From: Antedon bifida
Lineage: Eukaryota; Echinodermata; Crinoidea; Comatulida; Antedonidae
Direction of reading: 5' to 3'
Assembly (NCBI GenBank): GCA_963402885.1
Contig: OY727094.1
Span: forward strand, 21,392,501-21,456,500
Length of the DNA: 64,000 bases
The notes beneath the pieces are model-generated. The model had not been told where the DNA came from. It searched no databases and was given only the letters and a program-made list of their open reading frames with translations. A program made the position numbers and the translations under genes. This document shows, one piece after another, positions 4,874 to 39,100 of the stretch (positions are counted from its first letter, which is position 1; the number at the start of each line of letters is the position of its first letter).

Positions 4874-7800
4874 TGACTTAATCAAAATTAAAATGTTTGT
4901 ACTTTTACAAAAGATAATTGATTGAGCAAACAAATATTAAAATATGGGCAAAATTGAGGTATGGATTTAAAGTGAGACGCGCTCTATAAATCCTATATTT
5001 TATATCCGAGTGGTCATACGATGATGTCAAAACATCCGAGAGCTAAAAATGTTGCATGTATTCATATCTACAATTTATCTGCTTACATATTAAGTTAAAA
5101 AAATTGGGGATAACTGTTGATCCTGAAGATGTAAAATAGATTCAAAATAGGCATAATTTTTACATATTTTGTAACTTTTTAAACAAAAATGCGCACAAAT
5201 TGTCTAATTCAACGTGTTCGTATGGCGTGATGTAAAGTTGAAATGGTCTCAATTTTTCTTTAAATTACTACAGTAGCAAAGACTGGAAAATTATAATTCA
5301 AGAGAAAAAAAGATAATTTTCATACTCCGTGCGCACCGCACGAGTAAAGAAATGTCATGAATCATGTAGAAAGTTGATTTTAAATTAATAAATTTAAAAT
5401 GCGCGTGCGTACGTAACTTCTTGTAAAACACGCCATTTTTAATCCATAGAAAGTTAGCCCTTGATATGAATTAAACAAGTGTCAATAAAAAATAACTTTT
5501 AATTTTCAGTCTATGATCAATCATTGAAAATCGTAATATTGCGCATATGTCAAGTTGCGCAACGCTGATGTCATTAAAAATAGGAGGCACATAACTTTAC
5601 GTCCACGTCCACTTTATGTCCATATGTTGAAAAGTTATGAAATGTTATGTTTACACGTTTTAGAGTTATACGTGACACAAAAATGACGGAAAGAAAGAAG
5701 AACTGATTTGAGCTCATCACTTTTACGAGTTTGGATTATCCGCGCAAACACCACATGCCCATACATTAAAATATCAATGCCGACAATTATTATGCCATTC
5801 TATGACATGAATTAAATATGTTTACAGGACTGAATTTTACCAATTTTGTGTAATAAAGCATAACAGTATTTATGTTATATGGTGTAGCATATATGAAATT
5901 ACGAGACCGATCTTTTAATCCAATTTTTAACATGATAATGTCATCAAAATGTAACATAAATATAGCAATTTTAAGAGATAATTATCTAAATAATTACATT
6001 AATGAAAATGTTTGCAAAATTTTTGACACGAAAAAGCGAGGTGCACGCTATTTTAAATGCGCTGAATGTTTACGAAAGAGATGAAAATCTGACTATTTAA
6101 GTTCAACTGGCCATATGATGACGTCATCAGATAGACAAACTTTTTATGGGAATTCATATCTTTTTATATGATGACGTAATAAAAACTCATGTCAAAGAGA
6201 ATTGATTATTTATTTATTTATTCTTTCTTTTGACTGAGAAAGAACATATTAAAATCTAGGAGAAAATGGGGAACGCATTAGCGCGATGTGCTCTATTAAA
6301 TTGAATTAACTAGTACAAAAGTGAAAAAAAATCCTATTTTAAAAATTCGAGTTGCCATATGGTGACGTCACTACATCCGTTGGGTACAAATTTTACATGA
6401 ATTGATATCTACAACTCATCAGCTTCTATAATACATTTTAAAAAATGGAGTTAACCAGCCACCCTGAGGAGTTATAACTGATTACAAATAGGTCTATTTT
6501 TGCAAAAATTTGCATTAAATTACCTATTTTTAGCAAACGATTTCTAAAGTTTAACATGCACATGCGTCATTATTTTGCAATTAAAGTTTATCAAAATAAA
6601 TTAAATCTACTACAAAAGGTATGAAAAACAAAAATCAATTGCAAAAACCACTTTTGTACGAGCTGTGCGTGTGCAAAACGCAGAAAATTTAGACAATTAT
6701 GAAATGCTCAAAATGGTCGGAAATGTACGCGAAATTGATTAGAAATTAATTTTGCGCATTTTGAAATTTTAAATATGTGTACTTGCGTAATTGTTAGCAT
6801 AGTATTCTATTTTTATCATGTCAAAAGTTTCTCCATATTATGAAATACACTTTCGTAAAGCTTCATTGAAAAATAAATTTTTGTTTAGAATATATAATCA
6901 ACTATAAAATTTCATAAATCGCACGTAACTTACGCTGAGCGACTCTCGCGTCATATAACAAAGTTTCCTGCACATCTACAGTTAGAGGTCAATCTTCTGA
7001 CAAAGTTATAAGATGTTATGTTGTCAAGAATTAGAGATACACTTGACACAAAATTTGGGGAAAGAAAGAAGAACTAGATTTGAACTCGTCACTTTGACGA
7101 GTTAGTTATCCTCACCACAAACGCCATATGCACTTCATACGTTGGAATATTCCACACAGAAAAAGATTATAGCATTATGACCTGAACTAAAGAACATGAT
7201 ATGTTGTTAGTGCTGAATTCTGTCAATTTTGTGTCATATAGTATATACAGTAACAGTATAATCTGTATACATATTACATACAGTGTAGAATAGGTGAAAT
7301 TACGGGACCCGCCATTTATTCCTATTTTTAACATGGCGACGGTATCAAAATGAAACACTAAGATAGCAATGTCGGAAGGAAATTATCTCAGCAACTACAT
7401 ATTATCGTGTAGAAGAAGAAATTTGAATACGTAAAATACAGATGCGCGCTCTTTTAAATGTGATGAACTATGACGCAAAAGATTAAAATTTTTTTTTATT
7501 CAACTGGCCATATGATGACGTCACAACATCCGATTGGCAAAATGTTCACATGAATTCGTATCTACAATCCAATAGCTTCCAGAAAATATTTTAATCATGA
7601 TTATCACTATTTATTCTGACGAGCTATAACAGATTGAAATTTACTGTAAAGATGAAAATAAGTGACCCACGTTATTTACATTTTTTAGACATGATGATGT
7701 CATAAAAATTAAAATATTTTTAACTCATGCGAAAGATAGTTGATTGACCTAGACAATATCAAAATCGGGGTGAAAATGGAAAACAGATAAGTGGAGATGC

Positions 7801-8205
7801 GCTCTATTAAATGTGATGAGCTATGAAGAAAGATACAAAAATCCTATATTTTATAAAAGAAAGTTAGCACATGATATAAATTAAACTTTTGCAAAGTTTC
7901 AATTTGAAATGTTATTTGGTTTTCGACCTATGTTAAATTCGAGAAAATCGTTAAATCGCGCATAAGTCACGTTGCGCAATTGTAAAAGTCATGAAAAGCT
8001 TCGCTTGACGACGTTACGTAAATGTCAATATGTTAAGATAGTTACTTATAAGTGGAGATGCGCTCTATTAAATGTGATGAGCTATGACGAAAGATACAAC
8101 ATTCCTATATTTTACATTCGTGTGGCCATACGATGACGTCACAATATCCGAGAGGTAAAGATTCTGTATGAATTCATATCTAAAACATATCTGCTTACAT
8201 ATTAA

Positions 8206-21525: not shown

Positions 21526-22774
21526 CTAGAATTTAATTCGTCACTTTGACGAATTATAGGTGATCATTTTTATCATTTTACTGAAATTAATTTTTTTTAA
21601 ACATGCACGTACGTTAACATACGATCGGAAAATGTTGATGTATGCCATCCTATTATATGCTTATAGTGCTGAGTTGTGCCTATATGCCATATACAATATG
21701 TACAGTATATACTGTATATCTATATACAGTGTAGCATAGGTGAAATTACGGGACACACATGTTCTAATTTTTTGGCATGATGACGTTATCAAACTAAACT
21801 TTAAGATGACAATTTCGAAAGATAATTAATTGAGCAAAAAAATATAAGATTTGGAAAAAAACTTGGCACGTAGAAGCGCTGTGCGCGCTCTTTGAATTGT
21901 GTATAACTTTGACGAAAAATATGAAAAAACTACTTTTTCACTTCAACTGGCCATATGTTAACGTCACAACATCTGATAGGCTTAATTTTTATATGAATTA
22001 ATATCTACATTTCATCAGCTTTCATAATAAATTATAATCATCAAGGTAACCTTCAATTCTGAAGAGCTGTAAGATATTCAAATTTACTGCGAAGGTGAAA
22101 TTACACGGCCTACGTTATTCAAGTTTTTACGCGTGATGACGTCATTAAAATGAAGATAGTGTCAACTCATGATAAAGATAATTAATTAAGCAAGCACATA
22201 CTGAAAGTTGTGCGAAATTCGAGCACACATAACCAAGATGCGCTCTGTTGAATGTGATAATCTACACAAAAAGATAACAAATCCTAATTTTTAAATTCAA
22301 GTGGCCATTTGATGACGTCAAAACATTTTGTACGTAAAATGTGTACATGAATTCATATCTACAACTCAATGGCTTCCAGAATAAGTTAAAAAAATCGGGG
22401 GTCATCTTGCAATCTGAAGAATTATTTTCATTTTAAAAAAGACCTATTTTTCACCATTTTCAGAACTTTTGTAAAATTAATGTGCGCATTTTGTCATTTT
22501 TAACGTGCTCGTATAGCGTTATTTTAAGTCGGAACTGACTCAAATTTGGTGAATGTACTAAGGATGGTGAATAGAATGAGATTTGTAAAAAAAATTCATG
22601 TTTTTTACGCTTTTTAAGTATCGCGCGCGCAAAAACGCATTTTTGCGCAGTAATTTTTTGAAACACGCAAATGGCCTAATTCATGCTCTAAATTGATCAA
22701 AACTTAATTTTGAGCGTTTTAAATTTTTAACGCGCGATATCACGCGCATGAACCTATGTGCGCGTGCGTTTTTA

Positions 22775-22803
22775 CCCCACTAAAAAAATCACCGGGATCC
22801 CGG
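22775..22803 (+). repeat. Left terminal inverted repeat
   Basis: CCCCACTAAAAAAATC then ACCGGGATCCCGG. It pairs with the right end after allowing one indel and a few mismatches in the A-rich spacer. Confidence 0.8.
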
Positions 22804-23395
22804 CCGGGATCCCGGTGGGATCCCGGCCGGGATCGTGAAAATTCCCGGCGGGAAAAATGGTCGGTATTCCCGGCGGGATAATATCGAAATCCCGCAAAAA
22901 TCCCGTCCAATATCCCGATCTTTAAACGGGATTTTAATCGGGATTATCGGCAAAACGAACTTGATTTTTAGCGGGATTTTAGCCGGGATTTTAGCCGGGA
23001 TCCCGTCCCGACGGGAAAAATGGTCGGTATTCCCGTTCCCGACCGGGATCCCGCCAAGAATCCCGCCGATGACCGGGATTTTTTTGAGTGATATTTGTCC
23101 GGGATTTTAGACGGGATCCCGTCCCGGCGGGAAAAATGGTCGGTATTCCCGTTCCCGACCGGGATCCTGTCAAGAATCCCGCCGATGACCGGGATTTTTT
23201 TGAGTAAAATTTAGACGGGATTTTAGACGGGATTTCAGCCGGTATCCCGTCCCGGCGGGAAAAATTGTCGGTATTCCCGTTCCCGACCGGGATCCTGTCA
23301 AGAATCCTGCCGATGACCGGGATTTTTTTGAGTTATATTTAGACGGGATTTTAGTGGGATTTCAGCCGGGATCCCGTTCCGACGGGATGTATGGA
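22793..23395. repeat. Left subterminal GGGATCCCG repeats
   Basis: Dense CCGGGAT / ATCCCGG words in both orientations, many as GGGATCCCG palindromes. From about 23,013 a longer unit starting GGGAAAAATGGTCGGTATTC repeats at 23,013, 23,129 and 23,257 (116 and 128 bp apart), with a partial copy at 22,855. Open frames through it are composition artefacts. In plant CACTA elements short subterminal repeats bind the TNPA protein; a similar role here is inference. Confidence 0.8.
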
Positions 23396-23622
23396 TTTCC
23401 GCCAGAGACTTTTGAAGACGTGCGTTTATTTCCTGGCTCGGCCGACTCAATTGTATAAATCGTCGTATACCTACGATCGTCCTTTTGATTTCAGTAGGCC
23501 CTATTTCAACCATAATTGGTATTCGGACAGACGTCAATGAAAGGACTAGATGCAAAAAAAAAACAATTCAATTAATTAACAAACAAAAAGTGATCACACT
23601 GAAATATCATAAACAAACAAAG

Positions 23623-23628
23623 TTTATT
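23623..23628 (-). promoter_or_regulatory. Poly(A) signal of the BEN-like gene
   Basis: AATAAA on the minus strand, 16 nt past the stop codon at 23,644. Confidence 0.6.
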
Positions 23629-23643
23629 TTTCCTTCTTTTTTT

Positions 23644-26600
23644 TCAGATTTTGTATTTTTTGTTACGGATTGCCCGAATCTTATCATTTAATTTTTTTAC
23701 TACTTGGTCCCACACTTTATCTTTTTCAACTTCTTCGACAGGATAGACGTTGAACAGGTAACCTGAAAATTAAATATAGACAAATTTAGTTTATTTGAAT
23801 AATAATAACAGCATCACATTAAAAAATATATATATAATCATTTAGAGTATTAAGGTACGCCTACGGTGGAACGATATTTTTATAGAATGTTTGTTTTTAT
23901 TTTTGTATCATTATTCTATTTCACAATACCATTATTCAGTTGTTTTAGCAATGTGTTGACTAACAAAGTTAATTGATTAATAATGTTGAGTTTACTAACA
24001 ATCGTACGTTGTGTTGAATAACAACTTTACTTTTTTATAATTATGACGCGCATTATGTTACGTTGTGCAAATAAATTGATAAAAACGTTGAGTTGATGAA
24101 GCACTCAACTATGTTAGCAGTTGATTTTCAAAGAACTGTAGTTATAATATTAATTATTTGTTGAGTTGCGTTATTGTTGAATTGAGGGTATGACGCTATT
24201 GGTTTTCCAGCTGATGAGTGCAATACTGCACTCCTGCATAGACAATGCATGTGTCGTATGCAGGAGATCCGATCAATAGCCACCTCCATAACATTAAGGA
24301 TCGAAACAGCCGTCATCATCATTTATATTAGGTATTCTATTGTAAATAAACATTAGAATTATATGCTTATTATTTTTAAATAGTGTAATTTAATTTGAAA
24401 AACAAAAACATTCAATACTGGCGATGATGATGGCTGTCCTGGGATAAACCCAGTTGTTTTTTATGTGATCTTTTGATGACTTCTTTCATTTTAGCAAATG
24501 CATTATATGAAAAAAATTTGGGTAAGTATTTCATTGCATAAAAAACGTACTCACTTCGTAATGCCTTTCTTTTTGCTTCGTCCATCTGGACGTTTCCCTT
24601 CCCGTGACCATAAATTGTTAACTTGTTGTAGCATTGCTCTTTGGTAATTATTAATTCAAGTTTTTCAATGCTGTTCGCAAACATTTCGCATCGTTTAAGC
24701 GACTCCCTCTCCACCTTAACCCCATACTTGGCGTTACCCAAATATGTCATATCTGTTAACAGTAAAAACCAACATTCTCAAGGTTTATAGAGGAACACAC
24801 AATAAGAAATAATTAGGGGATATTGCCATTGACTATATAGGTTTAACTCCGCCAACATGCGCATGTGCCCATAATCTAAGACAAGAATGCAAATTGTATA
24901 GTGAATTATCTTTGCGCACACGTATTATAAATGTAGCGAACTGGATGTAATTTTTTTTAAATACACTTACCATCTAAAGAGTTTTCGTTCTCCATGGCAC
25001 TTTCGATGAGCTGAAGAGTAGGAGGTGGTGGCGGCAGCGGAAGAGTAGGAGTCGATGGCAGATGAAGAGTAGGAGGTGGTGGTGGCGGAAGAAGAGAAGA
25101 AGGACATGGTGAAGAAGGAGATGGTTGAGGCAGAAGGGGAGCATGAGGTGGTGGTGGGATGAGAGAGGGTAGTGGGGGAAGAGGCTTTATGCCCTGAAAT
25201 AAATATAAAGAATAAATATAAATTACGTAAAATTTTAATATACAGTGAGATAGTTTCTATCTTTACTATCACACGATCCCTCAGTATTATCCAATTTTGT
25301 GAAAAGTAAGTGAAAATATGGTTTAATTTTGACTATATATTGTTAGTAATTCATGCTTCAAGACATCGGACTGTCCCCCAGTTTGTCAATAAAAGAATAA
25401 GTAAATAATAAATAATCCTTGTTGATAATAAATTACCAGAGAGTAATGGAAAAAAAGTAAGGCGGAATTGTTGGTAAAATTATTTTTTAACTTCTTGGTT
25501 TACCTACCTTATACACGGTTCGCATACAGTTCCGACAACTCAGCAGTCGATCCAACTTATAATTAATGCGATTCTGCCCCTCCTCAATCTGTAGTAGCTA
25601 TGGTAAAAATGAGCAAACAATAATTTAAAAATAATTATCTAAGTATCTAATTTCCTTATTCTCCAGTTCAAATCACACTATTAAAATAATTCATAAAAAC
25701 TGTGTAAAATACGTGTCAGTACATAAAAAAACTATGTTACAAAATAAATCAATAAATATAAAAATTAAATTAAATAAAATGAAGTTTTGCAAAAAACAAA
25801 ATAAACATGAATTAGGCCTACCTTTTCCATTATTTCGTTATGTACTGTCCGGTCCACGACAGCCTGAAAAATACCGGTACCAAAACTTAATAATAATAAA
25901 TATTCACAATAAGATAGTGATAAGGATGCGGTGAGGTATAGGATCAACCCTTGAAGACGTAATAATAATAATGATAATGATAATAATTAATAATAATAAC
26001 AATTAATGTTGTTTGTTATTTTACATGTTTTTTTTCTTGATTTATTATTACCTCTTCACGGCTTAAATCCCCAATTAACTCGGTGGTTGTATGTTCATTA
26101 TACGCCCTTCTGGCCTCGTCCACGAGTTTTTTTTCTGTTAGTTGTTTTTTTCGTACAACGATTGCCTGAAAATAAATGTATATTAAATGATAATTATATA
26201 GTTTAAGCTCAATTGAAATCAGATGCATTCTATTATATAACTAACCTCTTTCTCTATAATTGATTGTTGCATTCCCTCTTTCATCTTTTTTGTAGTTGTA
26301 TTCTGAAACGAAAGACGTAGGCCTACATGATAAAGACATAATTGAAAGATTAACATTATTATTTTACATTACATACTTACATTATTTATTTATAACTGCA
26401 ACCATAACCGTGGATTAAAACTCCTCTATATACATCGTTTTACCTCACGAGTGTGGTTGCAGATAAAAATAAAATAATCAGACCTATGCGGAACCAAGGT
26501 TGCAAAGATAAGAATTTTACCGGTTATATATAAGTCTCCAGTTGGGTGCTGTTTAATGAATTATTATTATTATTATATTTCATAAATTTATATATAAAAC

Positions 26601-28404
26601 CCCTATGCATGGAATGTACCATTTTCCGGAATAAAAATTTTTTTTTGACAGTTTAAATTTAACTATAAATAAAACACATTTTCTGTAGGCTAGGCAAGCG
26701 CACCTCCGCGCATATCTCTCAGCCGACGCCGCAGTGTATATGATGAAGGGACCGTTATTAAAACGTTTGTATACACAATGTTTAGGCTGATACATCGTGT
26801 ATGTAATATAGCTACTGACCTCGTCCTCGCTTGATGTCTTTCTCTTCACATTACTACTCTGAAGGTTACAAATAATACACATTCCAATAAAATTACAATA
26901 AACTACAACCCAGTGGTCTGAATGTTACAAAATAATGTATTTTAATTAATTAATTTAGTGTATAGGCCAATATTACGATATCGTGGTAACATTTTGCGTA
27001 TTAATAATAATGATAATAATAATAATAAAATAATAATAATAGTTAATAAAAATAATATTAAATAATAATATTAAATAATAATAATAATAATACCTCATCT
27101 CTACACATTTTTTTGTTTTTGTTGCGGATTTTCTCCAACAACTCCTTGCGTCTTTCCCGTGTATGTTCTTTGTCGGAGACCTGAAAATGTTTAGGCCTAT
27201 ATGTAAATAATTTGACTAGGCCTACATGTATATTAATAGGCCTATGTGCTTTGCTATTACCGTATTTATTCGAATAAACGCCCCGTTTTGAATAGACGCC
27301 TCTGTCGAATAAACGATATTAATTATTATAATTTGTCCATATCTAGGAGGTATTTATTTGATTGCACTATACTTTTGCCATATTATACCCACAACAAAAA
27401 CTCCTCCCCCGAATAAACTCCCCCCAGACAATAAACTCCCCGGTATTTATTTGATTACACTATACATGTTTCCATTACACCCAAACAAATAAACGCCTCC
27501 CACGAATTTTTCGGAGACCCAAAATTGTGTACATACTACATGCTTGAGCAGTCGCAGCCAATCAGCGTCGAGTAGTTTAGGGTAGGCTTAAGCCAGTTAG
27601 CGCCGAGTAATTTAATGACGTCATTATTTTTTCTGAGTTGAGCCTCTATCATTTGTCCAAACTAATTGCCAATCAGCGTCGAGCATTTCACTGACTTATC
27701 ATTAGTTTTTCAAACTTTTCTCAAAAAACAACTTACCATCACATTTTTGACCAACTTCTCAAATTCTGAGCCTCTTAATATGTCTGAAAATGCTTTTTTC
27801 ATTGTTGAGTCTAAATATAAAATAAATATAATGTTGAATACATCAGAATCGTATAAATAAGCCCCTATATGTCCCACTGAAAACTTATTGATTAATTATA
27901 TTGTTAAAACTTCAATCCCGGTCGGGATGACCGGGATCCCGGTGCGTCGGGATACCGGTCATCCCGACCGGGATTGCAAAACTAGCTTAGGCCTAGGCAG
28001 CTATCGTAGGCCTACCTCTGCATAGGCCTAGTCTAGCCTATTTCATATAGGCCTAGGCCTAAAGCTTATTTAATATTTAAAAAAAAGAAAGAATAGCCTC
28101 TAGCCTAGGCCTAGGCCTAGCTATAGGCCTAGCCTAGGCCTATTTATTTTAAATCGATGATAAAATATTTTGGTCCATAAACAGAGCATGTAGCCTAGGC
28201 GAACCTACATATAGGCCTAGTCTGGGGAACTAAAACTCCTAGGCTAGGCCTAGGCAGCTCCCGCGCGGGGGGTACGGTGTACAACAGTAGGCACCACCTA
28301 CCTCCAGTTCTTCCAATCATCCCTTCCTGGATCCCAAATCCAGGGCATCTCGCCTTTACAATAGTGCCGACATTTAATGGCACTTTACTGATGATAGCTG
28401 ACAT
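23644..28404 (-). CDS. BEN-like domain protein of the transposon (11 exons, 378 aa)
   Basis: Exons on the minus strand: 28404-28302, 27810-27737, 27180-27094, 26858-26820, 26302-26246, 26165-26052, 25863-25822, 25588-25508, 25193-24971, 24752-24555 and 23762-23644. All introns are GT-AG, every phase matches, and the total is 1,137 nt with the stop. Residues 60-172 are Lys/Glu-rich and probably helical. Residues 173-199 include SCRNC. Residues 200-255 are proline-rich. Residues about 275-378 hold the likely functional domain, with LTIYGHGKGN, MDEAKRKALR and a C-terminal VWDQVVKKLNDKIRAIRN. That pattern resembles a BEN domain, a sequence-specific DNA-binding fold, but I judged this by eye. An in-frame ATG at 28,464 would add 20 residues. 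Reading through the last donor gives an alternative C-terminus ending at 24,412. Likely role: DNA-binding partner of the transposase (inference). Confidence 0.75.
24128..24460. repeat. Internal inverted repeat, left copy
   Basis: Inverted and nearly identical to 34,515-34,810. It includes the GATCGGATCTCCTGCATACG block and the GGCTGTCCTGGGATAA block in matching inverted order. Most of it lies in the last intron of the BEN-like gene. The two copies sit about equally far from the transposon ends (about 1.35 and 1.29 kb). Confidence 0.8.
27258..27510. mobile_element. CGAATAAACGCC MITE in an intron of the BEN-like gene
   Basis: Starts TACCGTATTTATTCGAATAA like the complete copy at 30,903. The right end is eroded. 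It lies between exons 2 and 3 of the BEN-like gene and breaks no coding sequence. Confidence 0.65.
27914..27975. promoter_or_regulatory. Perfect GC-rich palindrome inside the transposon
   Basis: Two perfectly complementary 21-bp arms (27,914-27,934 and 27,955-27,975) built from CCCGGTCGGGAT words flank a 20-bp centre that carries GATCCCGG. It is the only subterminal-type cluster away from the ends. It lies in intron 1 of the BEN-like gene, near the divergent promoter region. A role in autoregulation is inference. Confidence 0.6.
27985..28260. repeat. AGGCCTAGGCCTAG-rich tract
   Basis: Many overlapping TAGGCCTAG words, part of a word family scattered through the whole window. Confidence 0.6.
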
Positions 28405-29396
28405 TTTCAAGATGTTACCTGTTATTGGCTTATCCTTGTGCCATATCATTAATACTATAGACATTATGGTAGTGTAGGCCTAGTTTTATTAAATAAAATC
28501 TCTTGTTCGTTGAAGAATTGAAGATCAAGAATGGCGGGTTTGAAAAAAAAAGTTCTGGTTTGATGATCGAGGCGGGAAAGTCTTGGAAAATGGCTGTTGA
28601 AATAATTGATGGAGTAGGGGGGAGGGGGTGGTTGAGGGGCGCGTGTAGAAGTTTTATTTTGTATGAAATAAAAATGTTATAGTTTATATTGTATTATTAT
28701 TATTTCTTTTATTCGTAAATCATAGAGGTTTGAAATGATGGGATTTAAAAATGAGGAAAGGTGGTGGAGGGGGGGGGGGGGGGGGAGATTACAAGGGTGA
28801 TTCTTGTAATCTTTTTTTTTTCGTTGGCCGGACGTACGTGTATGTTCGGCAAGTAGATCGCGTCGTATGTTTAACATAAAACAGAAGGATCGAAGAAGAT
28901 TTACGTATATATATATATATAGATCGACAGACTAGAGTAAGTTTTATTTTCATTCACAGTTTACTGATAGTGAATCGGCACCACACAAAGTAATTTAGTT
29001 ACATGTTACTAATTGTAGACGTATATGTGTGTAGTGCATGCAAGCAAGGAGAAGGCTGGCGGCGGCGGCGGCGGCGGCCGGCCCAGTCGATTACGCGCGT
29101 TACGATCATGACGTAACACTTGAGAATACTGTAGTATCCATCCGCGCCTCAGCGCTTTCTCAGATCTCCCCTATTTATTCCCTCCACACCAATCCCTGCT
29201 CACTAGTAAAATAAGGGCAGGCATAATATTCAGCTTATATATATAGGTATACTAGCTAATGAGATGACTATAAAACAATTTAATACTGTAATGTGTTCCC
29301 AGATGCCTTCTTTATGAAATTAACATAGATTAGACGGTGGCCTATATAAAGCGTGTTTTACAAAATGTTGATAAAAACCCATTTTTTGTTTTAGCC
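28405..29396. promoter_or_regulatory. Divergent promoter region between the two transposon genes
   Basis: The start codons of the BEN-like gene (28,404, minus) and the transposase (29,397, plus) face away from each other across about 1 kb. The gap holds a poly-G run near 28,769-28,786, a TA tract near 28,906-28,920 and a GGC run at about 29,059-29,081. A plausible acceptor (TTTTTTGTTTTAG) lies just before the transposase ATG, so a 5' UTR intron is possible. No TATA or initiator can be assigned with confidence. Confidence 0.4.
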
Positions 29397-32300
29397 ATGT
29401 CAGAAAGTAGCAATGATGACTTTGATTCGCCAACAAAGTCTAAAATTAAAAAGTTCCATTCTAAACACTTCGGCTTTAATGCAAGAAGGGCTCGATATGC
29501 TGCTACCAGACAGTTCAAACGCAAACAACCAACAAAATCAAGGCCACCTAAACACATCTCTTCGACTTCTGATAGTAGTAGTGAAGATGAAATAATCTCC
29601 CCGGCACCGGTCGGCAGTTCTTCTACTACTACACCAAGTCATAGCAGCACGTCTGATGATACTGGCAGTGACTTCTGGACAGAACCAACTTCCAGTAGCT
29701 CAAACAACACCCCTTTTTTAACCAAATTATTTCAAGGATCTGATCATTCTTATATAAGCCTGTATACGTCGATTTTATTATTTGTAATTAAGCACTCACT
29801 CACGCAAGCTGCATATTCTGATTTACTTTTGCTGATTTCTTCTATTCTTCCTTCAACATGTAACATAGAGACATCACTATATAAAAACAAACAAATTATT
29901 AAACGGAACACTAATTTCAAGGAACCAACACCTAATTTTTATTGTGAGAGATGCTATAAGGAGTTGGCAAATAAGCTTAGCGTTTGTCCATGTGGAGGTT
30001 CGTGTCTCTCATTCCATCATCTAAGTCTTGATGACCAGCTTAAGGAATTGTTTGCAGGTAGGCATAGCTATGGTTTTTCGATATATCATTCTAATTACAA
30101 TCGTTTAAAAATAAAGTCAGCAAATACAGTCTCAACGTACGATGTTTGATATCTTAGAATATATTTATATTTGGAAATAAGTCTATTTTATCATTTAACC
30201 ATAACGATATATTTTACGGAAGCACACACTGTATTATAATTATATATTTTATTATAGATAAACAGTTTTGCGACATGGTTATGACAAAGAAAGTCAACAG
30301 AGATACCATCGAAGACATAACCGATGGCTCAGAATACCGCCGCATTGCCCCAAGTGCCTTAGGGAGCAATGAGACATTCATAACATTTACTCTAAATACA
30401 GGTATTAACAATATTACAGTTTTTCGTATTTAAACATTCTATTACCAACACAAAATTGTCATCATTCTCATTTATTTTTATTTTATTAGATGGTGTGTCA
30501 ATTTTTTCATCGTCGATGAAAACGCTATGGCCAGTGTACCTGGCAATAAATGAACTACCAGTACAGCTCAGGTACATTATTAACTTTTTTTTTTTTTTTG
30601 GTTTACAAAATGAATCGGAACCCGTACCTACCCCTATTCACGTACACGCTACTGGAGGCCTCTTTATCATACTGTATTTCTATTACCGGTTTGACATATT
30701 TAACAAATCATTATTATTAGGTTTTCAAGAAAGTATTTAATGCCATGCAATGTGTATTGCCAGTCTCAAAAGCCCAATATGCAAATGTATTTGAATGACC
30801 TGATGAAAAGAATACTTAAGTACAATGAGGGTGAGACACTTTTATTCTTTGCTTTACATAACTTAATTAATAATAACAATTCACCATATTACAATCAGTA
30901 ATTACCGTATTTATTCGAATAGACGCCCTCCTCCCCCCCCCCCCCCTTTCCACTTGAATAAACTCTCCTCCCTTCTCTCAAATAAATGCCCGGGGGCCAT
31001 TGTTTTTTGTTCCTCAAATACACGCCCCGCCACATGCATTACACACAATATTTGTAGTAGAATTCATTGACTTCCATGATCTACAGTTTGACCATGTATT
31101 TTTTATATAATTTTTACTGTATTTTATCCCATATTTATATTATAATTGTGTTGTATTTTTTCATATTTAGGACGAACTTATTTGATTATTAATCAGGTTA
31201 CCATATTATTACACAAAAAAAACGCCTCCCTCGAATAAACTTCGAGAACCACCCCCCTCACCCCTAAAAACCTCCCGGGCATTTATTCGAATAAATACGG
31301 TATTTATCAAGACGACGCAGCAATTGCAAAACAATACGAGAAATACGTTGGTGGTGAATTTGAGTTTGAAATTATAATTTTTTTTGATGATTTAATATTC
31401 GCAGGTGTTTTAATGCAAACTTATTATGGAAACCGTCTGATTAAAGCGCGTCTTTTGGCTACATGCTTAGATCTACCCGCTAGAGCTATTGTATCGAATA
31501 TGAAACAATACAACGGACGATTCGGATGCAACGTATGCCTGCAGGAAGGTTCTACGGGAGCAACACCGTTACATCGCTTTTATCCGTATAGAGCCACCAA
31601 TGCACTACGGACGAATGATGGATTCAAAGAAAAGTCGCAAATGGCCGCCATGAATGGAGAAGCAGTACGTTAAGTTCTCATTTTGTTACCGTGCTAATAA
31701 GAAAAAATTAAAAAATTGTGTTTTTTTTACCGTACCGTACTTATCTATTGCAGGTAAGCGGCATTAAAGGCGCATCACCCCTCATGCTTCTTCCGTATGT
31801 AGACATGACGGCAGCTTTTCCAATCGATTGGATGCACTGTGTGCTCCTTGGCATCACGAAACAATTGCTAAGACTGTGGCTTGGCAAAGACTCCAAAGGA
31901 CAATCCTTTTACATTGGAAATAAGGTTAGTTGCAACATTTTGTGTAGGTGAACAATTTTACTGGACCAAAAGGCCAGGGATAGGCCCACTATTATATTGG
32001 CTTTTGTGAAAAACTGTATTTTGTACAATCAAAATATAATTTATGAAATATATATTATAATTGTATTTGTTTAGATTGCTCTTCTCAACGAGCGACTTTT
32101 GGCGATAAAAACGCCTAAATTTGTCGCCCGACGCCAAAGAAGTCTGGACGAAAGCCAGCATTGGAAAGGTAAGATTAAAGAGATTAAGGAATTGCAACAT
32201 GACAATTATTGTTTAATTATTTTATTTTAATCCATTGAATACCTACTCATTGTACAGACCAGACACAACACACAGTCACGAACAGCCGATTGATCGAATT

Positions 32301-33789
32301 TGACCAAGCAAACTTTAATTTATGTATTATTAATTTTATGATACTTTGGATTTAAAGCTTCAGAATGTCGTGAATGGCTCATTCACTTTTCGATACCTGT
32401 TGTAAGAGGGATATTGGATCCAATGGCGTACGTCCATTACAGTTTACTGGTATCGGCAATTTCTACTCTTGCACAGGAATCTATTACGAAAGAACAACTA
32501 ATATATGCTGACACATTACTGACGGACTTCTGTGCAATTTTCCCCACAATCTATGGTAATTTAAAACATTTAACTTCTCTACGAATAATATTTATTTTAT
32601 GCTGTGATACTCTATTTGAAACCCTGATTTTTTAATACTGGGTAAAAAGTACATTTTAAAAATGGCTTACCGTACTGTTTGTTGGATGGAATTTTCCCAT
32701 TTCAATTATATTTGTGAGATTGTATATTGAATTTTGATATCCTAGGTGAGACTAAGCAAACAATGAATGTGCACCAACTCACACATATGGTCCATACATG
32801 TGAACGGTTTGGACCGTTATTTGGTTTCTCTTGTTTCGGATTTGAATCGATGAATTCTTTCTTAAAGAATATGGTCCATGGATCAAATTTTGTAACTGAA
32901 CAGGTATGTAAAACATTTATTTAAAACAATTCAAAACAAATCAATTCAGACAATTTATATTAATTGCATAAATATTTAATGATTTAATTAATCAAATTAT
33001 AATATTCATCTAACGAAATATAGCCTAAAACATAAACCGAATTCTTTACATCATTTAAAATTACTTAGTGATAAAATTCCCACAGATAACGTTCGCTGCC
33101 AGCATGACCAAGGCCTTGCCAGCATTGGTGTATAAACTGAAAGAAGAAAGCAGTACATGTACGAAACAGCTGCTTGATAGATTGACAGTGAAATATATGC
33201 GGCAGTAAGTTTCCTGTTTTGCATGTTAATGTTATTCGTCAACATAAATCTAGACATGATCATTGCATAATTCTCGAAAAAAAAATGAATTTCTTTTATA
33301 AATTACAGAGATAAAGAACCCGATGTGACAACGGTACTAGGGAGAGGTGTGCCGATGACGGGTACCAATTTTCGATACCTAATTGCAGACCTCCGTCATG
33401 TGACGACTTTCAAGCGGCTCCAAAAGGGCAGTGTTGTATATACTTGCCAAAGCGAGAAGAGCAAGACGAAAAGTAACTGCTGTGTCGTCTTTCAATTAAA
33501 TGATGCCTGGGCAGTTGGAAAGATACTCACGTTTATCACATCCACAACATCCACTCACTGCATCATACAGACGTACACATCAGAAGGATCGTTATTTGAT
33601 TTCAATCAAATAAGGCATGCTCAAATACGTGCGTATGATGACAGAATATTATGCCATCATATCCAGAAGGTCAAATCATCGTCAACAGTACTCGTACCAG
33701 TGTCACGCATTCTTAAGCCGTGCATCTTTATGCATATTCATGATGACACGTTTGTGTCGGTACCACCAAACTTGTTGGAACATGACTAG
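29397..33789 (+). CDS. CACTA/EnSpm-like transposase (11 exons, 825 aa)
   Basis: Exons: 29397-30057, 30258-30401, 30490-30571, 30721-30830, 31405-31664, 31754-31924, 32075-32168, 32358-32555, 32746-32903, 33086-33204 and 33309-33789. All introns are GT-AG, phases match, and the total is 2,478 nt with the stop. The N-terminus is basic and Ser-rich. A zinc-ribbon-like cluster has C183, C186, C197, C199 and C203. Residues about 221-626 match the Transposase_21 (tnp2) class in motif order: DGVSIFSSSMKTLWPVYLAI from 269, ATCLDLPARAI, FGCNVCLQEG, IDWMHCVLLGITKQLL with D444 and H447, then FGFESMNSFLK with E606. The acidic residues D269, D444 and E606 are candidates for the DDE triad (inference). The C-terminal 160 residues follow without a recognised domain. 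It should cut and rejoin the CCCCA termini in the nucleus. Confidence 0.85.
30903..31302. mobile_element. CGAATAAACGCC MITE in transposase intron 4
   Basis: A 400-bp element with termini TACCGTATTTATTCGAATA and TATTCGAATAAATACGGTA as inverted repeats. It is the best-preserved copy of a family also at 12.4 and 27.3 kb. It lies within the intron between exons 4 and 5, so coding sequence is spared. TA at each end may be a duplication or part of the terminus. Confidence 0.8.
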
Positions 33790-33811
33790 TGTAGTGCTAG
33801 TAGTATGTGGT

Positions 33812-34462
33812 GGGGTATGCGGGTTATTATAACCTTAGTGGAGTGACGTCCCTACCCCCAAGATGCATAGTTATTGTAAATAATGGCGGGGTATGCGGGT
33901 CATACAGACCTTAGGGAGTGACGTCCCTACCCCAAGATGCATAGTTATTGTAAATAATGGCGGGGTATGCGGGTTATTATAACCTTAGGGAGTGACGTCC
34001 CTACCCCAAGATGCATAGTTATTGTAAATAATGGCGGGGTATGCGGGTCATACAGACCTTAGGGAGTGACGTCCCTACCCCAAGATGCATAGTTATTGTA
34101 AATAATGGCGGGGTATGCGGGTCATACAGACCTTAGGGAGTGACGTCCCTACCCCAAGATGCATAGTTATTGTAAATAATGGCGGGGTATGCGGGTTATT
34201 ATAACCTTAGGGAGTGACGTCCCTACCCCAAGATGCATAGTTATTGTAAATAATGGCGGGGTATGCGGGTCATACAGACCTTAGGGAGTGACGTCCCTAC
34301 CCCAAGATGCATAGTTATTGTAAATAATGGCGGGGTATGCGGGTCATACAGACCTTAGGGAGTGACGTCCCTACCCCAAGATGCATAGTTATTGTAAATA
34401 ATGGCGGGGTATGCGGGTTATTATAACCTTAGGGAGTGACGTCCCTACCCCAAGATGCAAAG
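33812..34462 (+). repeat. Nine-copy 74-bp array in the transposase 3' UTR
   Basis: Copies start at 33,812, 33,888, 33,962, 34,036, 34,110, 34,184, 34,258, 34,332 and 34,406. The first is 76 bp and the others 74. The array starts 22 nt after the transposase stop and ends before the AATAAA at 34,513. Two variants alternate in the order A B A B B A B B A; A has GGTTATTATAACC where B has GGTCATACAGACC. Each copy can pair GGGGT with ACCCC around two hairpins (GGTTA/TAACC or GGTC/GACC, and AGGGA/TCCCT). Confidence 0.9.
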
Positions 34463-34512
34463 TTAGTTTATGGTATATTGGCCTAGATATATGAATTTTA
34501 AATGGCAAACAA

Positions 34513-34518
34513 AATAAA
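34513..34518 (+). promoter_or_regulatory. Poly(A) signal of the transposase gene
   Basis: AATAAA, the first clear signal after the stop, placing the 74-bp array inside the transcript. Confidence 0.55.
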
Positions 34519-34810
34519 AACTGGGTTTATTATCCCAGGACAGCCAAATCATCATCATTATTCAGTGTTTTTTTTTTAAATTTGCTAAGATCTAATTAGT
34601 TTGTACGGTATGCCGTATCTTTATAAAGAAATAATTATATCAATGATGATGACGGCTGTTTCGATCCTTAATGTTATGGAGGTGGCTATTGATCGGATCT
34701 CCTGCATACGACACATGCATTGTCTATGCAGGAGTGCAGTATTGCACTCATCAGCTGGAAAACCAATAGCGTCATACCCTCAACTCAACAATAACTCAAC
34801 TCAACAATTT
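34515..34810. repeat. Internal inverted repeat, right copy
   Basis: Inverted counterpart of 24,128-24,460, with the TTATCCCAGGACAGCC and GATCGGATCTCCTGCATACG blocks. CAACTCAAC words follow it and also flank the left copy. Translations across it are similar only because the DNA is duplicated. Confidence 0.8.
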
Positions 34811-35569
34811 TAAGTAATTTAATTATTTTACAAAAGATAATTCAACTGATAAAAATGGGAATAATGTAATTTCGTCATGTTATACAAATAAATTCATTTT
34901 TGATCAACTGAAACAAACATGTTAAAAATAGTGGTGCTTAACCACGTTATCGACATTTATTCAGTGAAAAGATAACACATAACATACTAAATATATAGAG
35001 TAACAGTTAATGAATTAACATTGATAATCAACTCAACGTAAACTTGTTAACTCAACATCAATATATTCAACGTAGCATTGGTTAAATCAAATCAACTCGT
35101 TGTTAGTATTAATGAAGATGATATGTTAAATGAATAATAAAATATGTGATTTAAATGATCAAAGTAGCCGTGGCGTGCGTCGCATAAAATGGTGGCACAT
35201 AAGGTAGGCCTACTATTGTCAAAAAAGATGCAGCGGAGCTAATTTGATCATTAATATAAGTGGTATTTAAAACAAAACACAATTAAACTATTCAACGCAA
35301 AAACATTTATCAACACTACCGGTAAAAATACATACAATTTACAGATGAATTCTGTCTGTTACGAATGTGGTATACCGAAATGATCCCAATGACTAATTCC
35401 GAAATAGACGCTTTCAAATAACTTAGATTGTGGCAGACGACATATCCTATTCTTATCTCGCTAATCGGTGGGATTCCAGACAAATCTCATCGTGATGTCG
35501 CTAAATATAAAAAATACAATTTCGAGACAAAATCCATAATTTGCACGTAACGTAACGTAAAATCCCAAA

Positions 35570-36082
35570 CAAATCCGTCTTCCCTAAATCAACTGTCCCG
35601 ATCATATGATAAATCCCGCCGTATCGGTGGAATCCCAAACAAAAAAATCCCGTTCATTCAGAAATTGCGCTAAAAATCTCGGTTAACCGACGGGTCGAGC
35701 ACAAGCAAAATCCAGCCTATCCCATACTAGTCCCATAAATCCCGCCGTGGCGACGGGATCCCGAACAAATCCCGTTCATTCAGAATTTGCGCTAAAAATC
35801 CCGGTTGACCGACGGGAGCTACAAACAAAAATCCCACATATCCCAAATTAACTGTCCCGATAATAATGATAAATCCCGTCGTGGCGGCGGGATCCCGAAA
35901 AAGAATCCCGCTCATCCAGAATTTGCGCTTAAAATCCCGACAACCCGCCGGGATCCCGAAAAAATCACGATTATCCCGAAATTACGATCCCGATCCCGAT
36001 GATAAATCCCACCGGGATTCGGAGATCCCGACGGGATTCGGAGATCCCGACGGGATCCCGACGGGATCCCGTCGGGATCCCG
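35570..36082. repeat. Right subterminal GGGATCCCG repeats
   Basis: AATCCCG / CGGGATCCCG words dense up to the terminus. A longer unit with ATCCCGTTCATTCAGAA and TTGCGCTAAAAATC repeats about every 120-137 bp. The longer unit differs from that of the left end; only the GGGATCCC core is shared. Confidence 0.8.
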
Positions 36083-36100
36083 TTTTTATTTTTTATGGGG
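36072..36100 (-). repeat. Right terminal inverted repeat
   Basis: Read on the minus strand: CCCCATAAAAAATAAAAACG then GGATCCCG, followed outside by the TTA duplication at 36,101-36,103. Confidence 0.8.
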
Positions 36101-39100
36101 TTATTTGCTAATATTTTTACCCTTGATCTGAAGTTTACGTGTAGTGAATTTCATTATTATGTGATAATGAATTATGGAGATATGATTGATAATGTGATTT
36201 CGCAAAATGGCGTATAAATGTCGTCACGGATGAGTGATCACGCTGGAAAGCTTATTAGGATTAAGTTATATTATTTGAAAGATATTCTGAAATTTTTGTA
36301 ATCATTGACATTAAACTTTTTGAGATAATTGTTACACAAAATAGTGTACAGAAACAATAAAAAGAAAAAAAAAAAAAATAACTAGAATTTAATTCGTCAC
36401 TTTGACGAATTATAGGTGATCATTTTTATCATTTTATTGACATTAATATTTTTTAAACATGCACGTATTTTAAAATACAATCAGAAAATGTTGATGTATG
36501 CCATCCTATTATACGGTTATACTATAGTGCTGTGCCTATTATATGCCATATACATTATGTACAGTATATACTGTATATCTATATACAGTGTAGCATTGGT
36601 GAAATTACGGACACACATCATGTTCTAATTTTTCGGCACTGATGACATTATCAAAATAAACTTGTGGATTACAATATCGAAAGATAATGAATTGAGCAAT
36701 AAAATATAACAATTGGAAGAAAATTTGGCACGTAGAAGGGCGGTGCGCGCTCTTTAAAAATTGTATAACTTTGACGAAAGAGATGAAAAAACTACTTTTT
36801 AACTTCAACTGGCCATATGATAACGTCACAACATCCGATAGGCTTAATTTCTATAATAATTCATATCTACATTTCACCAGCTCTCATAATAAGTTATAAA
36901 CATCAAGGTCAACTTTAATTCAGAAGAGCTGTAAGGTATTCAAGTATACCTTGTAGGTGAAATTACGTAACCACCGTTATTTAAATTTTAAGACGTGATG
37001 ACATCATCCAAATGAAAATATTGGCAACTCATAAGTAACATAATTGGTTGAGGTAGAATATATTAAAAATTTAAAGAAAATCGATCACAGATAAGCGAGT
37101 TGCGCTCTGTTGAATATGGTGGTCCATTACAAAATGGGAAAAAACCCTATTTTAAAAATTAATGTGGCCAAATGATGACGTCATACCATTTTGTACGTCT
37201 AATGTGTATATACATTTATATCTACAACTCATTGGCTTCCAGAATAAGTTAAAAAAATTGGGGGTCATCGTGCATTCTGAAGAGTTATATTAATTTTAAA
37301 AAGGCCTTATTTTTTACCATTTTTAGCACTTTTGTACAATTAATGTGCGCATTTTGTCATTTTTAACCTGCTCGTATAGCGTTATTTTAAGTCGGAACAG
37401 ACTCAAATTTGGTGAATGTACTAAGGATGGTGAGTAGAATACGATTTGTAAAAAAAATTCATATTTTTTACGCATTTTAAGAATTGCGCACGCAAAAACG
37501 CATTTTTGCGCAGTAATTTTTTGAAACACGCAAATGGCCTAACTCATGCTCTAAATTGATCAATACTTAATTTGGAGCTTTTTAAATTTTTAACGCGCAA
37601 TTTCACGTGCATGACCTTGAAAAATGTAAGTTTTTATTTGTTAATATTTTTATCCTTCACCTGAAGTTTACGTATAGTGAATTTTATTGATATGTGATAA
37701 AGAGTTATGGAGATATGATTGATAGTGTGATTTCACAAAATCGCGTATTAATGACGTCACGGTTGAGTGATCACGCTGAAAAGCTTATTATGGCTAAGTT
37801 AAAGTATTTGAAAGACATTGTGAAATTTTTGTGATCATTGTTATTCAACTTTTTGAGATAATTGCTAAACAAAAGTGTACAGAAAGAAGAATAACTAGAA
37901 TTTAATTCGTCACTTTGACGAATTATAGGTGATCATTTTTATAATTTTATTGACATTAATATTTTTTAAACATGCACGTATTTTAAAATACAATCAGAAA
38001 ATGTTGATGTATGCCATCCTATTATACGGTTATACTATAGTGCTGTGCCTATTATATGCCATATACATTATGTACAGTATATACTGTATATCTATATACT
38101 GTGTAGCATTGGTGAAATCACGGGACACATATCATGTTCTAATTTTTTGGTATGATGGAATTATCAAAATAAATTCGAAGATGGCAATTTCGAAAGAACA
38201 TGAATTGAGCAAATAAATATAAGAATTGGAAGAGAATTTGGCACGTAGAAGCGCTGTGCGCGCTCTTTAAAAATTGTATAACTTTGACGAAAGAGATGAA
38301 AAAACTACTTTTTAACTTCAACTGGCCATATGATAACGTCACAACATCCGATAGGCTTAATTTTTATAATAATTCATATCTAAATTTCACCAGCTCTCAT
38401 AATAAGTTATAAACATCAAGGTCAACTTTAATTCAGAAGAGCTGTAAGGTATTCAAGTATACCTTGTAGGTGAAATTACGTAACCACCGTTATTTAAATT
38501 TTAAGACGTGATGACATCATCCAAATGAAAATATTGGCAACTCCTAAGTAACATAATTGGTTGAGGTAGAATATATTAAAAATTTAAAGAAAATCGATCA
38601 CAGATAAGCGAGTTGCGCTCTGTTGAATATGGTGGTCCATTACAAAAGGGGAAAAAACGTTATTTTAAAAATTAATGTGGCCAAATGATGACGTCATACC
38701 ATTTTGTACGTCTAATGTGTATATACATTTATATCTACAACTCATTGGCTTCCAGAATAAGTTAAACAAATTGGGGGTCATCGTGCATTCTGAAGAGTTA
38801 TTTTCATTTTTAAAAAGACATATTTTTTACCATTTTTAGCACTTTTGTGAAATTAATGTGCGCATTTTGTCTTTTTTAACGTGCTCGTATACCGTTATTT
38901 TAAGTCGGAATGGACTCAAGATCGGTGAATGTACTAAGAATTGTGAGTAGAATGTGATTTATACATCAAATTTCATTTTTTACGCCTTCTAAGAATCGCG
39001 TACGCAAAAACGTGTTTTTGCGCAGTAATTTTTTGAAACACGCAAATGGCCTAATTCATGCTCTAAATTGATCAAAACTTAATTTTAAGCTTTTTAAAAT

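Follow-up and report, generated by a model that had tools for sequence, protein, structure and literature searches.

How an animal relative of the maize En/Spm transposon might handle its own ends is the question raised by a locus of the crinoid Antedon bifida, in which one mobile element carries two genes that are read away from each other. Transposition of plant CACTA elements needs both a transposase and an end-binding protein, and the element described here, which lies within the 64,000-nucleotide stretch of DNA that we call the window (C7:21392501-21456500), combines a transposase gene with a divergent partner gene. We consider it likely, from the sequence comparisons and from the analogy with maize, that this partner has a BEN-like domain with which it would bind the subterminal repeats and gather the ends of a mobile animal CACTA element, as the protein TNPA does in plants. 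The comparisons cover a genome of 315.6 Mb in 27 contigs, and all counts from the genome searches are lower bounds.

Ends, second copy and transposase of the element

22772..22774, no strand: left flank of the putative 3-bp target duplication (TTA, read directly)
22775..36100, no strand: whole element, 13,326 bp, CCCCACTA...TATGGGG; the C13 copy starts and stops at the same bases and has different flanks
36101..36103, no strand: right flank of the putative target duplication (TTA, read directly)
29397..33789, plus strand: transposase gene, 825 aa, 11 coding exons, all introns GT-AG
29397-30057, 30258-30401, 30490-30571, 30721-30830, 31405-31664, 31754-31924, plus strand: transposase exons 1-6
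32075-32168, 32358-32555, 32746-32903, 33086-33204, 33309-33789, plus strand: transposase exons 7-11

The CCCC that opens the element begins at 22775 and the GGGG that closes it finishes at 36100, exactly where a preliminary description of the locus had placed the termini, and the inverted ends read CCCCACTA and CCCCATA. That description had also called for a genome search for further copies. A second complete copy was found at C13:23418501-23432500, in reversed orientation and 13,316 bp long, which aligns with the window element over 13,315 bases at 99.74% identity, with five substitutions, five indels and no aligned flank. The presence of a near-identical copy whose flanks do not align shows a mobile unit that has moved recently. 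Diverged element ends are also found elsewhere in the genome (two 5' ends and several 3' ends).

The target duplication of plant CACTA elements is 3 bp long. The window element has TTA on both sides, as had been described, whereas the C13 copy, which is preceded by CTA and followed by TAG, has only TA in common between its two flanks; these are the two copies in which both sides can be read. Further copies with the same boundaries and a 3-bp duplication had been predicted, and the C13 copy has the boundaries and lacks the duplication. The possibility that TA is part of the element ends was rejected, since the letters after four other 3' ends are TTG, TAT, CAG and AGA. The letters CACTA do not stand at the very ends, and the terminal repeats have the CCC core that is a trait of animal TRC elements. 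It has been reported for these elements that the termini have a CCC core and that 2-bp repeats flank 7 of 14 SmTRC1 copies (PMC1636069).

The 825-aa model has a Transposase_21 (tnp2) match above the Pfam cut-off (37.2 bits against 28.6), as had been expected, and DUF1258 scores 31.4 bits, slightly below its cut-off of 33.1. When the window protein was aligned with the open frames of four other loci (L001, L003, L004 and L006; five sequences, three families), D269, D355, C374-x2-C377, H583-x3-H587 and E607 were invariant, and the D, D and E among them, assigned by motif, are presumably the catalytic residues. The invariant positions fit the arrangement described for EnSpm and its kin, a D-D-E triad whose second D and E are separated by a stretch that contains C(2)C and H(3-4)H (PMC12730594). 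The earlier view of a CACTA/EnSpm-like two-gene transposon is upheld by the domain, the catalytic residues, the CCC-type animal termini, the subterminal repeats and the second copy. We assign the element to the animal branch of the CACTA/EnSpm superfamily, as a recently mobile, low-copy DNA transposon, and more narrowly to the animal TRC branch described with SmTRC1; both assignments are based on sequence.

The divergent partner gene and the subterminal repeats

23644..28404, minus strand: partner gene, 381 aa, 11 coding exons, all introns GT-AG; kept and transposase-linked in other families
28404-28302, 27810-27737, 27180-27094, 26858-26820, 26302-26246, 26165-26052, minus strand: partner exons 1-6
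25863-25822, 25597-25508, 25193-24971 (proline-rich, exon 9), 24752-24555, 23762-23644, minus strand: partner exons 7-11
24555..24752, minus strand: partner exon 10, which opens the BEN-like region and is 15 bp shorter than in C13
23644..23762, minus strand: partner exon 11, remaining BEN-like region and C-terminus
28405..29396, no strand: region between the start codons, 992 bp, presumed divergent promoter region
22793..23388, no strand: left subterminal repeats, with 35 half sites (CGGGAT/ATCCCG), many of which belong to CGGGATCCCG palindromes
35613..36082, no strand: right subterminal repeats, 27 CGGGAT/ATCCCG half sites
27913..27976, no strand: internal CGGGAT/ATCCCG cluster in partner intron 1, 7 half sites, near-perfect palindrome

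Two readable, spliced and divergent genes had been described, and both models read through, with 11 coding exons each, GT-AG introns, products of 825 aa and 381 aa and 992 bp between the start codons. The word intact holds for the readability of both genes and not for partner exon 10, where the window copy is 15 bp short, in frame, relative to C13.

A six-frame genome search returned 40 partner matches and 75 transposase matches, and all 40 of the former and 39 of the latter entered the linkage count, the 36 omitted being further exons of listed loci. They formed 18 partner and 27 transposase clusters, and 10 of the 18 partner clusters had a transposase cluster within 20 kb, compared with an expected 0.4% as estimated for uniform placing. 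Nine of the ten linked pairs are divergent and the tenth, at C7:23.66 Mb, is rearranged. The ten linked partner clusters are not independent and represent about six families, given that the window and C13 copies belong to one family and that family F3 contributes four near-identical copies.

The partner is also conserved across families. Its C-terminal region is 62% (F2), 57% (C9) and 55% (F3) identical to that of C13, and comparisons of exons 10 and 11 between families gave dN values of 0.24-0.47 with synonymous sites saturated or nearly so, while exon 10 of C13 compared with a fragment on C14 gave a dN of 0.031, a dS of 0.291 and a dN/dS of 0.11. Moreover, the C-terminal domain is split over two exons in the same way in other families. 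The divergent linkage in several deeply diverged families, together with the signature of purifying selection, leads us to regard the partner as a selectively maintained part of the transposon machinery and not as a passenger. Transposable elements can carry captured sequence, and a captured host gene without any part in transposition would be compatible with the eight partner clusters that have no transposase match nearby; against this stand the divergent order itself, kept in families in which 38-45% of the positions of the partner C-terminal region differ from C13, the purifying selection and the shared division of the domain into two exons. A passenger gene is already disfavoured on these grounds, and we hold it to be very improbable.

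The domain in question, coded by exons 10 and 11, follows the proline-rich exon 9 and is probably BEN-like, as judged by sequence comparison. BEN was the best Pfam family for four of five partner sequences (window, 13.3 bits; C13, 13.6 bits; F2, 15.7 bits; C9, 20.0 bits, E 7.8e-4), and when a profile of the five sequences was compared with the PDB up to E 10, the sole chain retrieved was BEND3 (E 0.52, over 88 positions). As a yardstick, when the sequence of a BEND3 domain was run alone against that library, BANP, which like BEND3 is an accepted BEN protein, came up at only E 0.66. The BEN-like partner of the preliminary description is supported to this extent, and the Pfam search proposed there gave BEN as the best family of the window partner at a score (13.3 bits) below the required 23.2. 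Filing the partner as a BEN family member was rejected because the Pfam gathering score is not reached, and we use the term BEN-like throughout. No TNPA-type family was matched among the Pfam results for the window proteins and the other partner sequences tried.

The presumed target of this domain is concentrated at the ends of the element. The palindrome CGGGATCCCG occurs 13 times in the window, always within the element, and not once in 100 shuffles, in line with the subterminal repeats noted earlier; each end holds six copies, and the thirteenth lies in partner intron 1. Similarly, 62 of the 69 half sites are found at the two ends and the other seven in partner intron 1, with none elsewhere in the window. 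In F2 the motif is present at the left end and a similar cluster follows partner exon 1, and in F3 the motif is present at the left end (the left end and the partner gene are visible in F3, and the right ends of F2 and F3 fall outside the data).

We propose that the C-terminal BEN-like domain of the partner would bind the palindromic CGGGATCCCG-type repeats at both ends, that the bound partner would gather the ends for the transposase, and that it might regulate the element by way of the motif cluster in intron 1 of the partner gene. This TNPA-like role is suggested by the recurrent linkage and conservation of the partner, by the reported binding of BEN domains to palindromic or CpG-bearing sites (PMC7764960, PMC11472053, PMC10206803), and by the analogy with maize TNPA, which binds subterminal repeats and regulates En/Spm (PMC2613891). 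A counterpart of TNPA had been put forward as an inference before, and linkage and conservation now lend it support. The partner could instead be a BEN-type chromatin or transcription factor that shields the element from silencing or drives its promoters without gathering the ends. BEN proteins are indeed chromatin and transcription factors, and the motif cluster in partner intron 1 and the proline-rich exon would suit such a function; nevertheless, 62 of 69 half sites lie at the ends, which is where TNPA binds in plants (PMC2613891), and we think a role restricted to chromatin or transcription unlikely.

Several observations weigh against an end-gathering BEN-like partner in a CACTA element. 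The 3-bp duplication is present in one of the two complete copies (the window and not C13). For eight of the 18 partner clusters, some of them perhaps fragments, no transposase match lies closer than 20 kb. Loci L001-L004 have no clear partner, with matches better than E 0.01 near one locus only, and for L005 and L006 the surrounding 20 kb contained no partner match with an E of up to 0.001. The domain of the window partner lacks five residues (15 bp, in frame, exon 10) that are present in C13, and F2, C9 and F3, the three other families aligned, also have residues at these positions. The BEN family (PF10523) scores below the Pfam gathering score of 23.2 in four of the five partner sequences, and the F3 partner has no BEN match in Pfam, its only match being weak and unrelated, and no motif cluster in its gene. 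The occurrence of Transposase_21 loci without a clear partner nearby means that the partner is not needed by every animal CACTA element. Altogether, the observations of the preliminary description were partly confirmed and its interpretation is partly supported.

The inverted structured modules

24184..24453, plus strand: left structured module, within partner intron 10 and antisense to the partner; CUGAUGA at 24211, GAAA at 24303, GUC ending at 24438
34521..34781, minus strand: right structured module, downstream of the transposase and antisense to it; CUGAUGA at 34754, GAAA at 34662, GUC ending at 34539

The element contains a pair of structured modules that the earlier account did not include. 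They face inward, are roughly 270 nt long and run antisense to both genes, within an inverted pair that spans 24158-24462 and 34512-34807; a core of 131 nt is identical in both window copies (131/131), and 103 of the 143 aligned bases of the adjoining part are identical. Chance was rejected as the origin of the inverted pair, which has 171 nt at 98% identity and is kept across families. F2 has modules at both corresponding positions, within the tenth partner intron and downstream of the transposase; in C9 one is present in intron 10, and in F3 those detected are all located beside the transposase.

With a 140-nt query from an F2 module, 34 genomic places were recovered. For 22 of these a partner or transposase match lies no more than 20 kb away, and the other 12 are more distant. 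A manual reading of the match lists gave seven inverted pairs, in all of which the module strand points inward, and the same holds for all 16 modules that neighbour a divergent gene pair; the module by the rearranged pair at C7:23.66 Mb breaks the usual order. Three module pairs have no gene match near them; the pair at C7:11.73 Mb adjoins a diverged element end, as expected of a deletion derivative. An unrelated short repeat inserted by chance on both sides might account for the wide scatter of the 34 places, 12 of which are more than 20 kb from either gene, and would leave unexplained the same positions in diverged families (inside intron 10 of the partner and downstream of the transposase), the consistently inward orientation and the gene-less pair at an element end, so that we attach a very small probability to it.

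The structure of the module was evaluated on 13 aligned copies, with 32 proposed pairs in five helices that include a pseudoknot, which the folding program cannot show in full. The proposed pairs are standard in 94.0% of cells, compared with 31.6-43.8% when the partners are slid. The covariation score of 0.138 exceeds that of shuffled alignments (0.104, sd 0.009; none of 500 as high), and relatedness alone can exceed such shuffles; four pairs changed on both sides and 16 further pair types were reached by 53 and 103 of 500 shuffles, respectively. Stem III, which lies mostly beyond that alignment, is stronger evidence for a structure than the covariation is. Starting at one common first pair, it pairs 15 positions in the left window module, 16 in the left F2 module and 14 in the module at C7:23.66 Mb, with different sequences, and by manual count the left window module differs from the other two by six and seven double-sided changes, respectively, that keep the pairing. 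One mismatch is present in the module at C7:23.66 Mb and one in the right F2 module, and in the right window module the pairing resumes only after a shift.

One strand of the module reads CCNAG-CUGANGA ... GGAUC-GAAAC-AGCC ... GGCUGUC-CUGGG, which resembles the core of a hammerhead ribozyme. CUGANGA is found in all 12 aligned copies with letters there, its free position alone varying (nine U, three A), GAAA is found in 11 of 13, and stem I is possible in all five copies with letters on both sides, three of which are of the window's own kind. CUGANGA, GAAA and NUH with stems I and III, the hammerhead definition used here, occur together in the window copies, C13, the left F2 module and C7:23.66 Mb, and not in L053. 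A hammerhead descriptor (stems I, II and III of 5, 5 and 6) had two matches in the window, the two modules, against 0.025 per shuffle in 40 shuffles; with a stem I of 4, a third, unrelated match appeared (0.05 per shuffle), and a looser descriptor run on 28 sources totalling 269 kb gave eight matches, six at modules and two elsewhere. The module copies L029 and L053 do not match the hammerhead descriptor. Chance-level descriptor matches outside the element were seen at window positions 7616-7809 and 22059-22383 (plus strand). Across the genome there are 19 occurrences of the bipartite pattern CGAAACAG-N(105-135)-CTGTCCTGG, compared with none in the control; 18 of them fall at the 34 module places, 16 of which are without the exact pattern; the pattern is also present at C7:19316907-19317032, outside the 34 places of the similarity search.

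Other features depart from this family. Stem II does not stand directly between CUGANGA and GAAA, since two hairpins, a and b, precede GAUCC/GGAUC, and hammerheads are not known to carry hairpins between CUGANGA and stem II. The Rfam hammerhead models have no match in the window up to E 5, and on both counts the module was not filed as a hammerhead. Identification with a known RNA family was likewise rejected, since all 18 Rfam matches up to E 5 are under their curated scores; most of them fall on the CGGGATCCCG palindromes, and sR1 at 24420-24441 overlaps the left module (E 1.1, 17.3 bits against 45). The CUGGG of the module can alternatively pair with a CCCAG just downstream. Folding energy was discarded as a decisive criterion for the strand, with z values of -2.0, -0.9, -0.8, -2.5 and -1.8 on the module strand and -3.3, 0.1, -2.0, -1.5 and -0.6 on the other, neither being favoured. 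On the module strand G-U pairs outnumber A-C by 31 to 8 without a doubtful outer pair and by 31 to 14 with it; counted by pairs the ratio is 11 to 8, and the cells are not independent.

With lower confidence than for the partner, we propose that the inward-facing modules would be cis-acting parts, either RNA acting on read-in transcripts or DNA sites near the ends; the module could be a derived hammerhead, some other kind of RNA or a DNA site. DNA sites near each end, cruciform-forming or protein-bound, would be consistent with the retention of modules in gene-less pairs and with a folding energy that favours neither strand, and are harder to reconcile with a hammerhead-like core on a single strand, with the excess of G-U over A-C on that strand and with overlapping pseudoknot helices, which would be odd for a cruciform; we place them slightly short of an even chance. 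Hammerhead-derived self-cleaving RNAs, which would cut read-in transcripts antisense to both genes, could account for the conservation of CUGANGA and GAAA, for a stem III that starts at exactly the right bases and keeps its pairing through double-sided changes, for the possible stem I in each of the five copies with letters on both sides, and for the descriptor and bipartite matches concentrated at the modules. Two conserved hairpins inside the would-be catalytic core, the silence of the Rfam hammerhead models, the places without the exact bipartite pattern, the failure of L029 and L053, the competing CCCAG and a core that was recognised after the fact all speak against self-cleavage, which we rate as doubtful.

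Additional repeats and copies were also observed.

33808..34465, no strand: 74-bp tandem array, 8.9 units, directly after the transposase stop codon

F2 (L054) has a 109-bp tandem array in the corresponding place, directly 3' of the transposase, and the units of the two arrays differ, yet each contains TTGTAAATA. Transposase intron 4 has inverted ends with TATTTATTCGAATA, about 350 bp apart (30899-30928 and 31277-31306), and an end containing TATTTATTCGAATA recurs in a partner intron (27258-27283), resembling a short nested repeat. Loci L001-L004 (C7:14.00, 19.53 and 24.07 Mb; C8:20.33 Mb) are four nearly identical copies of another Transposase_21 family, with a 627-aa open frame in three of the four and offset self-matches behind the frame that suggest a large tandem array. 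At the F3 loci L055/L056 (C1:2.015-2.031 Mb) the side of the transposase carries two modules in tandem, and the C-terminal exon of the transposase recurs in part within a long inverted repeat.

Comparison with known systems and meaning

The element shares with animal TRC elements (SmTRC1 and its insect relatives) a Transposase_21 domain with conserved acidic residues and CXXC, CCC-core termini and, in the window copy, a putative short target duplication, whereas a separate divergent BEN-like gene, palindromic subterminal arrays and inverted modules are not described in the part of that report available to us, which does describe alternatively spliced transcripts for SmTRC1 (PMC1636069). The separate divergent BEN-like gene and the structured modules are the features in which it differs from the known animal TRC elements.

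In maize En/Spm, TNPA and TNPD come by splicing from a single transcription unit, whereas the window element has two divergent genes. The likeness to En/Spm and plant CACTA elements consists in a transposase accompanied by a second protein, in subterminal repeats and in a binding that bears on regulation (PMC2613891). With the BEN proteins BEND3, BANP and NAC1 the partner shares a C-terminal domain that aligns to BEND3 over 88 profile positions, and it differs from them in scoring below the Pfam cut-off. Hammerheads have been described in Penelope-like elements, Terminons and retrozymes (PMC6431247, PMC9695139); the modules have core bases and stems I and III like theirs, and differ in belonging to a DNA transposon and not to retroelements, in their paired inward copies and in the extra hairpins of the core. 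Our literature search, which covered titles and the beginnings of abstracts, returned no report of a BEN-like partner gene or of hammerhead-like modules in a CACTA element. A joint scenario, in which this lineage guards both edges with inward-facing, hammerhead-derived self-cleaving motifs of a new pseudoknotted kind, which would cut host transcripts entering the element antisense to both genes and so spare it double-stranded RNA, and uses a BEN-type end-binder where plant elements have TNPA, is in our judgement improbable.

If the modules are RNA, a cut-and-paste DNA transposon would have ribozyme-like parts of a kind that has been described in retroelements (PMC6431247, PMC9695139). Besides, a BEN-like transposon gene would be a possible source of the BEN proteins in animal genomes. 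The combination of a divergent BEN-like gene with a palindromic end motif offers a concrete candidate for the end-binding protein of animal CACTA elements, and the element may show how the animal relatives of maize Spm control their own ends.

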